In this document: one piece after another, positions 49,352 through 53,584 of the stretch
Numbering within the stretch: position 1 is the first letter of the stretch
Layout: each line of letters starts with the position of its first letter
DNA from: Streptomyces diastatochromogenes
Lineage (GTDB): Bacteria; Actinomycetota; Actinomycetes; Streptomycetales; Streptomycetaceae
Assembly: GCA_001550305.1 (NCBI GenBank)
Contig: LRTP01000577.1
Coordinates: 1 to 64,000 of the forward strand
Length of the DNA stretch: 64,000 nt
Direction: 5' to 3'
The notes under the pieces: generated by a model
What the model was told of the DNA's origin: nothing
Databases searched by the model: none
Seen by the model: only the letters and a program-made list of their open reading frames with translations
Program-made: the position numbers and the translations under genes

Positions 49352-49650
49352 TCAGAATGAGGTTCGGAGTCGTCTCAAGCAGATGATGCTGCAGGCGAGT
49401 TGGAGCAGTGCGAGGTGGAGGTCGGCACGTATCTCGTAGCGGATGCGCAGTCGTTTGAACTGATGCAGCCAGGCGAAGGTCCGCTCGACGACCCATCTGG
49501 TCCTGCCCAGCCCGGAACCGTGCGGGGTGCCGCGGCGGGCGATCTTCGGCGTGATCCCCCGACAGCAGCAGCCGTCGCGGTCCACTTGTGCACGGCCTCG
49601 AATCGTCGCCTCCTGCGAGACCTCGCCGGCCTCCTCGCGGTGTCTTCCAT
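49352..49650 (-). pseudogene. C-terminal fragment of an IS5-family transposase
   Basis: Leftward GITPKIARRGTPHGSGLGRT, RWVVERTFAWLHQFKRLRIR, YEIRADLHLALLQLACSIIC LRRL: the last DDE glutamate (VVERTFAW) and tail of an IS5-type transposase. The upstream part is out of frame. From here to 49908 no further gene is seen. Confidence 0.75.
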
Positions 49651-49908: not shown

Positions 49909-50925
49909 TCACGAGCGCTCGCAGTCCTGCTCTGTGATCTCGTCGAGGAGGCCGTGGAGGCGGCCGTGGAGCCGCTCGACGAGCAGGATCAGGCTGGCGG
50001 CGTCCATCGTGGCGAGATGCTCCCGCCGGGCTCTCTGCAGGTCTTGGCGGGCGAAGTCGACGGCGGCCCGCTGCCAGGCCGTGAGACCGTGCAGCGGGCC
50101 GTGCGGGCGGCCGTCGGGCACGAGACCACCATCGAGGGTTGAGGAGCAGTGTATGGGCCGCCGCCCGGCCGGGGCCTGTGCGCAGGGTTCAGCGCGGGCG
50201 GAGACGATCCGCGTGCCGATGTGGCTGGGCTTCGGGACCTCGAGGACTTCCGCTTTGGCGGTGGCGAAGCCGGCCCGGGTCAGCAAGTGCTCCCACACGG
50301 CGGGCCGGTAGCTGTACCGGTAGGTGAACATGGCCTTCCCCGCGAACCTGCTCTTGTGCATGCCCTGCGGGCCGTAGGCGCCCGGGATGGCTGGCGGCTG
50401 GGAGAACACAAAGACGCCCCCGGAACCAAGCGCTCCCGGACGAGCGGGAAGAGCCGGGACGGATCGGTGAACCAGGCCGCCCCGAAGATGGAGTACACCG
50501 CGTCGTACTGGCTTTCATCTGCGGCAAGTCGGCCGAGAATCCTACCCTGCACGATCCGTACTCCGAGCGGCGCCCACCGGTCGCCGACGAGCTGCACCAT
50601 ACGCGGCGACAGGTCGACCCCCGTTGGCCTTGACGCCCTGTTGCGCGAGGTGGGCGAGGGAACGGCCGGTGCCGCAGCCGGTTTCCAGCGCAGACTCGGG
50701 GGAGCCCAGCAGCTCGGTTCCAGGGCCGTGGCCGGAGTACTGCGTCCAGGGGTTGCCGAGGATGTGTTCTTCCATGGCGCGGAACATCGTGTGATCGCGC
50801 AGGAGCATCGCGATCACGCGGTCCCAGATGCTCATACCGGAGTCGAAGATGTTGACGGTCAGCTCCGTGATGTGCGGAGCGACCGCGTTGAGCAGCTCTT
50901 GCGGGTCGCGGGTTCGGGTTGTGAC
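49909..50925 (-). pseudogene. class I SAM-dependent methyltransferase with two compensating frameshifts
   Basis: Frame 1: ITELTVNIFDSGMSIWDRVI, LRDHTMFRAMEEHILG, LETGCGTGRSLAHLAQQG (SAM-binding motif I). An extra G in a G5 run (50618-50622) shifts to frame 2: SPRMVQLVGDRWAPLGVRIV, YDAVYSIFGAAWFTDPSRLF. A lost G at 50417-50421 shifts to frame 3: VFSQPPAIPGAYG, WEHLLTRAGFATAKAEVLEV. The domain ends near 50190; the frame stays open to 49909 with a helical tail that may be a separate small gene. No clear start codon. Divergent from the XRE gene. Confidence 0.7.
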
Positions 50926-50991
50926 GGGACGCTCGGTAATCTCACCGTGGGATCACTTCCTATCGCGTCTGTGCATACCGGGGGCTGCGCC

Positions 50992-51844
50992 ATGACGACG
51001 ACACTCGGATCGATCGAGCTGCCCGACTGGGGATGGGAGCGCGCCGAGGTGCGCCAGGCCCTGCGCGCGAGGAACGTGGGCGCCCTGTTCCGGTACGCGC
51101 AGCAGTACACAGGCGTAAGCCAGGCCCGCATCGCAGCCGCGGTCGGGATGGCGCAGGGCCGCGTCAACGAGATCATCAACGGCCGTAGGGAAGTAAGCCG
51201 TCTCGACGTGTACGAGCGGATCGCCGACGGCCTGCTCATGCCCGACGACGCCCGGCACCTGCTCGGCCTGGCCGCGAGCCGGGAGAAGCGCTCCGGTGGC
51301 GCCGCGTTCGACCTCGCCGCGTTCCCGGAAGTCGTCCGCGTGTACGCCGCGCAGAACTCCGCGGCCGACGAGGTCCAGCAGCAGGCCCGCGAGGCGCAGG
51401 AGCTGGACGTCCTCGCCGTCCGTGGCCTCGGCCTGATCGGGCTGAACGACAGCCTTCTGCGCGCCTATCTCCCGCGCGACCAGGGCGGCAAGGGGCTCCG
51501 TGGTCCGGGTGCTGCTCCTCGACCCCGACAGCGACGCCCTGGCCCGGCGGGCGGCCGAGATCGGGGAGTCCGCCGAGTCCCTCGCTGGGGGCGTGCGGCT
51601 GGCCGAGGCGCGGCTGCGCGAGTTGGCCGACTCCTGCGACATTCAGGTGCATCGGTACCGCATGCTGCCTACTTGGCGACTCATCCGCACGGACTCCACC
51701 ATGTTCGTCAGTGCCTTCGATGCGGGGTGGGGAGGTCACGAGAGCGCCACGTACAAGGTGATGGAGACGCCGCACGGGCCCCTGTTCCGCGGGTTCCGAC
51801 GGATGTTCGACGCGGTCATCGACGGCGCGCAGCGCACGGTCTGA
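50992..51844 (+). pseudogene. XRE-type regulator with C-terminal sensor domain, frameshifted
   Basis: Residues 1-170: helix-turn-helix LFRYAQQYTGVSQARIAAAV, GMAQGRVNEIINGRREVSRL, then a linker. Near 51495 the frame shifts, and the C-terminal domain VRVLLLDPDSDALARRAAEI, GESAESLAGGVRLAEARLRE, TDSTMFVSAFDAGWGGHESA, HGPLFRGFRRMFD follows in the other frame to 51844. Without the shift this is a common Streptomyces regulator of about 285 residues. The CYTH gene follows after 20 bp. Confidence 0.75.
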
Positions 51845-51864
51845 CCAGGAGAGGGGAACCGCTC

Positions 51865-52419
51865 GTGATCGAGGCGGAGTTGAAGGCTCAGGTGCACTCG
51901 CCCGAGGCGGTAATGCGGCAGCTCGACGAGCGCGCCGAGGCCCGTGTCGAGGTGTACCGTGACACGTACTACGACCGGCCGGACGGCTCACTGGAGAAGG
52001 CCGACCAGGAGCTGCGCGTACGGACGGTGCACGGCTCGGACGGCACGCGGACGGTGCTCACCTTCAAGGACGCGACCGTCGACGAGCGCTCCGGATCGAA
52101 GCCCGAGCACGAGACCCGCGTCGAGGACGCCGAGGCGGCGCACGCCATCCTGCGCGGCCTCGGCCACGTCGAGGTCATCGCGTTCGAGAAGCGTTGCCGG
52201 AACTACGCCTTCGAGGCGCACGGCCGGCAGATGCTCGCCACCCTCGTACGCGTCCCCGAGATCGATGGGACGTTCCTCGAGGTCGAGACGATCGCCGACG
52301 AGGACGACGTGAGCGCGGCCTTGGACGATGTCCGCGTGGTGCTCGCCGACCTTGGTATCGGGCCGGAAGACCTGACGAGGGAGGCGTACACGGGCGCGGT
52401 GGCCGCGCACCGCGGCTGA
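51865..52419 (+). CDS. CYTH-domain protein (class IV adenylate cyclase / thiamine-triphosphatase-like)
   Basis: 184 residues from GTG 51865 (AGGAGAGGGG upstream). The signature IEAELKAQV gives the ExExK start of the triphosphate tunnel. VYRDTYYDRPDGSLEKADQE, LRVRTVHGSDGTRTVLTFKD, FEKRCRNYAF and FLEVETIADEDDVSAALDDV supply the other basic and acidic tunnel residues. The enzyme could make cAMP, hydrolyse triphosphate compounds or cleave polyphosphate; which one is not visible. Apparently co-transcribed with the XRE regulator gene. Confidence 0.92.
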   Translation: MIEAELKAQVHSPEAVMRQLDERAEARVEVYRDTYYDRPDGSLEKADQELRVRTVHGSDGTRTVLTFKDATVDERSGSKPEHETRVEDAEAAHAILRGLGHVEVIAFEKRCRNYAFEAHGRQMLATLVRVPEIDGTFLEVETIADEDDVSAALDDVRVVLADLGIGPEDLTREAYTGAVAAHRG

Positions 52420-52497
52420 CGGGGGGGGGCTCGCACAGTGCAGGCGAGGCAGGAGCCCGAGAGCCTTGTCAGGCAGATGGGGTGACCCCGTTGACGC

Positions 52498-52818
52498 TCC
52501 ACCTTGATCGTGGACACCTCGACACTGGATCTTGAGTCCAGGGAGAGGAGTCCCAGGTGGGGACCTGCAAGTACTCGACGGAGTTCCGGGCCGACGCTGT
52601 GGCGTTGGCCCGTTCGTCGGGCCGGCTCGTCTCGCGCGTTGCCGCCGAGCTGGGTGTGAACCACGAGTCGCCCGGCTCGCAGTCTTCCGCTGGCTCGGCT
52701 TCTACAACCACCGTCGCAGGCACTCCGCGATCGGCTACCTCGCGCCGGTCGCCTTCGAACCGAGATCAACTACGCTGGCCATCGCTGCATGACAAACGGT
52801 GTCCACGATCAAGGTGGA
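52498..52818 (+). mobile_element. internally deleted IS3-family element with perfect 21-bp terminal repeats
   Basis: The ends 52498-52518 and 52798-52818 are exact inverted copies (core TGTCCACGATCAAGGTGG). Inside, the OrfA start (KYSTEFRADAVALARSSGRL, VSRVAAELGVNHES) is joined near 52675 to the OrfB end (RWLGFYNHRRRHSAIGYLAP VAFEP) in a different frame. About 321 bp in all: a MITE-like deletion derivative. Confidence 0.85.
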
Positions 52819-53114
52819 AGCCCCGCTGTCGCAGCCGGCGCTGCACGGCTCGTGTCTGTTCCAGCATGTCATCGACGAGCTCGAAGAGCAGGTACTGGGT
52901 CAGCTTGCCCAGGTGGCCGGGAGCGAAGAAACCATCCGCAACCGTGATGGTACGGGTGAGCGTCGCGGTGGCAGACTGGCCTGACAACGGGACCTCTCGT
53001 GGCAGGAAGACTTTAGTCGGTCTCCCGCTTCTACCAGAGGTCCCGATCTCGCATCCCCAAGCTCCCCAGTTGGCAGGCGAGTTGAAGTTTCCTCCGCGCC
53101 CTTGAGTTCGTGGC

Positions 53115-53343
53115 CTTGGGTGATGGGGAGCGTCTGTTGGTAGCGCCGCCCATCGCGCAGGAGAGCCCAGAGGACATTGACACGGCGGCGGGCGAGGGCG
53201 AGGGTTGCCAGAGTGCGGCGCTTGCCCTCGGCGCGCTTGCGATCGTAAAGCCGGCGCGAGTTTTCGCAGTAGCGGATGCTGAACAACGCCGAGGTGTAGA
53301 AGACGCGTTGGAGGCGGCGGTTATATCGCTGGGGACGCCGCAG
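53115..53343 (-). pseudogene. C-terminal fragment of an IS110-family transposase
   Basis: Leftward frame LRRPQRYNRRLQRVFYTSAL, FSIRYCENSRRLYDRKRAEG, KRRTLATLALARRRVNVLWA LLRDGR, the end of IS110/IS116-type transposases. The catalytic DEDD N-terminal domain is absent. From here to 53584 nothing else was recognised. Confidence 0.75.
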
Positions 53344-53584
53344 ATTCTCGCTGGCCGGCCGACGCTGGACCGCCTCGTCCCGGTGATCGACCGGTCCGTC
53401 ACAGCTCTGCGGGCACGGGTGTCTCGATGACGCAACAGCCTCACGGGGGTTCGGTCGAACTCGCGTTCTCTGAACCCGTGTTGATGGGACCGGCCGGCCG
53501 GGAACGCCGCCGCGACGGTGCCGTCTCCCGTCCCGGTCTCCCGGCGTGGGGCGTGGCACCGCCGCGGTGGCGGGGTCGGGTCCG

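Follow-up and report, generated by a model that had tools for sequence, protein, structure and literature searches.

MITEs are described in PMC3189936 as derived from insertion sequences (ISs), generally less than 300 bp long and moved in trans; MITEPsy1, from the same source, is a multicopy element with 4-nt duplications that was trapped as it transposed. A literature search returned, among the matches listed, no title on non-autonomous IS3 derivatives in Streptomyces. The element studied here lies in a stretch of 64,000 nucleotides from Streptomyces diastatochromogenes (contig LRTP01000577.1, hereafter the window) and had been read from the letters alone as a MITE-like IS3 derivative with flawless 21-bp ends. 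With MITEPsy1 it shares a short length, terminal inverted repeats, derivation from an IS and the lack of a transposase; unlike MITEPsy1, it appears to be single, has no duplication and carries an abnormal tip, and its 333 bp are slightly above the length that PMC3189936 gives for MITEs. We consider it very probable that the window copy is an ordinary, solitary and decaying remnant of an IS from the IS3 family, which inserted into an IS4-family gene and underwent both an internal deletion and the loss of its left end.

The inverted repeat itself proved real, its two 21-bp arms being 100% complementary with 279 bp between them and their outer edges 321 bp apart (52498–52818). With up to 3 mismatches allowed, the 21-mer occurs in the window at these two places only (expected number 0.00; two matches in none of 100 shuffled sequences). 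Contrary to the original prediction, the arms are not the ends of the element: a PLSDB search with a full-length copy and its flank gave a 100% match (H21) over query positions 22–1290, i.e. 1269 bp, which extends past the 21-bp repeat by exactly 6 bp on both sides. Among 32 distinct left ends (window included), the outer hexamer was GGGCCC in 19, GGGCCT in eight, and GGGCCA, GAGCCT, AGGCCC, TGAACC and TGACGC in one each; 26 distinct right ends (window included), read on the outward strand, had GGGGCT in 19 and one- or two-base variants in seven. This survey admitted up to 2 mismatches in the 21-mer and left out, for example, L060 (TGAAGC, 4 mismatches) and L104:123 (TGAAGC, 3 mismatches). Because of the borders of the full-length match and the conservation of hexamers outside the repeat, the ends of this IS subgroup are 27 bp long, with the 21-bp repeat as their inner part. 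With 6 extra bp on each side as in the full-length copies, the predicted span of the window copy is 52492–52824 (333 bp). Its left tip, TGACGC, is unlike the 30 other left ends of the subgroup that were collected; TGAACC belongs to a cousin IS on contig C314 of the same genome.

Features of the IS3-derived element and its right flank (positions in the window)
Feature	Position	Strand	Basis
Site of the left outer hexamer; TGACGC here vs GGGCC[C/T] in the IS	52492–52497		Left-end comparison
Left inverted repeat, 21 bp; inner section of the 27-bp end	52498–52518	+	Repeat search and end comparison
OrfA remnant, 37 codons to the junction, GTG start	52557–52667	+	OrfA of relative L045: HTH_Tnp_1
CACGAG at the deletion junction	52662–52667		Alignment with full-length copies, 936 bp missing vs the 1269-bp form
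C-terminal remnant of OrfB, 40 codons plus stop, frame differs from OrfA	52670–52792	+	OrfB of relative L045: rve integrase core
Right inverted repeat, 21 bp	52798–52818	−	Repeat search and end comparison
Right outer hexamer AGCCCC, IS tip intact	52819–52824		End comparison; flank homology starts at 52825
IS4-family transposase gene, 5' stub, interrupted by the element	52825–52987	−	Flank matches H42 and H43; PF13006, 22.3 bits

Derivation from the IS3 family was correctly recognised: OrfB of a full-length relative matches the NCBIfam model NF033516 (transpos_IS3) with an E value of 2.5e-95 and 319.8 bits (cut-off 160). Full-length relatives of 1256–1269 bp are present in other Streptomyces, and in one of them (L045) OrfA (659–943) carries the HTH_Tnp_1 helix-turn-helix and OrfB (940–1824), in the −1 frame relative to OrfA, the rve integrase (DDE) core. 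A 1269-bp copy in Streptomyces sp. NBC_00557 (L123), annotated as 'IS3 family transposase', has the same 21-bp repeat bar one right-side base and the same right tip as the window copy. Compared with full-length IS3 copies such as this one, the window copy has 13 differences over 170 bp in its left part and eight over 162 bp in its right part, and it differs from L123 in lacking 936 bp, both working genes and a duplication, and in its abnormal left tip. The three full-length 1269-bp copies in genome G117 are 100% identical, and the parent IS thus looks to have been recently active outside this genome.

The internal deletion was predicted to have left about 321 bp, with the start of OrfA linked out of frame to the end of OrfB; it was confirmed by comparison of the junction with nine and with eight of the ten full-length copies used for the end survey. 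The OrfA start (52557) is fused to the end of OrfB (stop at 52790–52792) in a different frame, and the 936 bp absent relative to the 1269-bp form break at a CACGAG microhomology: both edges of the deletion read CACGAG in four of eight full-length copies and ACGAG in three (all G117), and neither in the eighth (L107). The deleted length of 936 bp is divisible by three, and OrfA and OrfB have different frames in the intact IS; the remnants are consequently out of frame. Loss at the 6-bp microhomology would have come about by slipped replication or illegitimate joining. IS copies are a usual cause of misassembly and the draft is fragmented (1280 contigs), but a misjoining of parts of two IS copies during assembly is extremely unlikely, given that the join shares only 5–6 bp, that the site is inside a 67,488-base contig and that substitutions absent from all copies compared occur in both halves. 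Nine such substitutions, four in the left and five in the right half, are private to the window copy relative to all usable copies, i.e. eight full-length copies (those only for the right half) and further left parts, with the left half of L124 excluded as out of register (63 differences). Eight of the private substitutions are in the coding remnants, one of them beside the junction, and five of the seven others change an amino acid, which agrees with a sequence that stopped coding some time ago. The 42 bp of repeat are free of all nine; about 29% of random placements give the same result, and the idea that pristine repeats point to use was dismissed as not significant.

The right flank places the insertion in an IS4-family transposase gene. 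Two plasmid matches to this flank (H42, H43; 91.6% and 92.5%) begin exactly at 52825, and the homologue of the stub on one of these plasmids, NZ_CP109328.1 (L130), matches PF13006 with 101.3 bits and continues in frame through the insertion point, whereas the stub in the window stays below the cut-off of 25 bits. The other plasmid, L131, shares 18 bases beyond the insertion point and then diverges. An element of about 1.27 kb, with 27-bp ends, OrfA and OrfB, would accordingly have entered this gene, with its right edge preserved at the point where the flank homology starts. Compared with the far side of the L130 site, the 30 bases that precede the left tip, or the repeat, are alike at 6 or 8 positions, and the DNA beyond the left tip is, by this alignment, not the remainder of the IS4 gene. 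Because of this low agreement and the TGACGC tip, we regard the left end as altered and its flank as exchanged. Positions 52415–52497 had no match in PLSDB at E values up to 1. The segment 52405–52500 matched 375 of 392 genus genomes at E values up to 1, the best match outside the own genome being 44 bases at 82% (E 1.8e-4), and these matches were taken as chance. A 20-base piece of the left flank (52456–52475) has a 95% match in many genus genomes, with E values of about 0.07–0.09 each. Since an empty left site was found neither in PLSDB nor in the 392 genus genomes, we infer the event at the left end: the tip and the half of the IS4 gene beyond it are missing, and deletion or recombination may have removed or exchanged them.

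The element is situated 78 bp behind a CYTH-domain gene (51865–52419; PF01928, 67.6 bits), the nearest relative of which (G022, 84%) matches only as far as 52420. A new role for the remnant, e.g. as a promoter or small RNA, is the least probable of the readings weighed here; the region 52300–53450 is without an Rfam match at the gathering score. The ORF at 51500–51844, just before the CYTH gene, matches no Pfam family; upstream, an HTH-like frame (within 50149–52419) seems to run into the CYTH gene via a frame change. IS debris is clustered beside the IS4 stub, where 53136–53353 matches genes annotated as IS110 family transposase. A transposase fragment at 49355–49585 matches DDE_Tnp_1 (PF01609, 35.6 bits).

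IS3-family elements generate a short target duplication of 3–5 bp. Among ten full-length copies, a 3-bp duplication was present in two (GAT, CCA), GG only in one and none in seven; three of these ten copies, including both with the 3-bp duplication, are from one genome. Duplications of 3–4 bp had been proposed as a check, which came out negative with either set of ends: the window copy has no target duplication of 2–6 bp at its 333-bp ends, and none is seen in the bases neighbouring the 21-bp ends (..GACGC / AGCCC..). As most full-length copies are also without a full duplication, its lack in the window copy weighs little.

In the own draft genome (12.3 Mb), allowing up to 3 mismatches, the 21-mer lies at six places, two in the window and one each on contigs C480, C314, C527 and C642. 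A DNA search of this genome with 52440–52880 returned the window copy and seven others, only that on C480 being close (94%, query 58–232) and six being 71–75% identical; no second copy sharing its junction was found there. At an E value of 0.001 or better, 132 of the 392 sampled genus genomes (own included) match the element, with two candidates scored per genome; among the matches listed, no row but that of the window covers both halves, and halves that lie close together are either separated by about 1.25 kb (G082, G144) or adjoin in a different, shorter derivative (G341). The genus is Streptomyces, coordinates in G237 and G117 agreeing with those of S. brasiliensis JCM 3086 and Streptomyces sp. 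NBC_00557, respectively. None of 70 matching plasmid records in PLSDB covers 80% of the query. An exact scan of genome contigs for the 21-mer, which does not show diverged copies like that in G341 and may omit the records closest to this genome, gave 20 stretches, five of them with two matches whose outer edges are 1245–1257 bp apart, and none short. One exact 21-mer outside Streptomyces, in a Bryobacterales MAG (L120:3251–3271), is without inner IS sequence and is probably due to chance. The draft, which may lack collapsed copies, and unsampled genomes may conceal further ones. The proposed search for the same ends succeeded for full-length copies, which exist in relatives, and failed for a similar-sized copy with the same junction in the own genome, PLSDB and, with two candidates scored each, the 392 genus genomes.

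The draft contains no full-length copy of the subgroup; its only close relative (G000:C480:768–1443) is truncated, covering query positions 1–674 of 1269 at 90%, and has a TAG within the OrfB piece. The left flank of this copy is nearly the same as that of L128 (NZ_CP108633.1, Streptomyces sp. NBC_01136), where the IS copy has an annotated FKBP-type isomerase gene next to it, and because of this likeness the insertion seems to be common to both. Contigs C593 and C1107 carry 55% identical cousins in which OrfB is open, and no end within 4 mismatches of a 17-base core was found in the cousin loci L153 and L154. TGACGC differs by one base from TGAAGC, the left end of the diverged IS3 relatives L060 and L104; it is nonetheless very improbable that TGACGC is a working variant and that the 333-bp miniature, with asymmetric ends, is mobilisable by the cousin IS3 transposases of this genome.

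A mobile MITE that a full-length IS from its own subgroup moves in trans is likewise improbable. The perfect 21-bp repeat and the intact right tip would suit it, as would the full-length relatives in other strains with the three identical copies in G117; against it stand the wrong left tip, a left flank that is not IS4, the missing duplication, the failure to find a second copy and the lack of a full-length subgroup copy in the draft. Set beside MITEs, the window copy has the internal deletion and the 21-bp repeat within 333 bp, with an abnormal left terminus, no target duplication and no further copies among the genomes and plasmid records searched. A MITE family was rejected, further copies having been found neither in the own draft nor in PLSDB nor, among the matches listed with two candidates scored each, in the genus genomes. 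The label 'MITE-like' is thus not borne out, and the idea that a full-length relative could still move the element finds no support in a copy with an altered left terminus, no duplication and no full-length subgroup partner in its draft genome. The original prediction was to fall if the copy were unique and no autonomous partner existed in the genome or relatives; the copy does look unique and its genome has no partner, but relatives carry full-length copies. With no transposase and one abnormal terminus, this decaying remnant is not expected to be mobile at present, even in trans.

A second deletion derivative of the same IS subgroup was found in genome G341 (C1; L049:543–671). It is 129 bp long, has both usual tips and no exact duplication, and shares with the window copy an internal deletion that left both repeats; it differs in its breakpoints and in its left tip. 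The other G341 matches to the full-length IS are 65–67% alike. As aligned, this derivative is independent of the deletion in the window. In S. brasiliensis, with two IS copies, TCGTCTTGAGCCCTTCGAGGG flanks both a left end (L103:7366) and a right end (L112:5299), as if the IS had entered one repeated site in both orientations. A perfect inverted repeat may form the inner section of IS ends and is no proof of mobility. The window copy is of little importance alone, as ordinary genome debris; together with the G341 derivative, it shows that short deletion remnants have arisen from this Streptomyces IS3 subgroup on at least two independent occasions.
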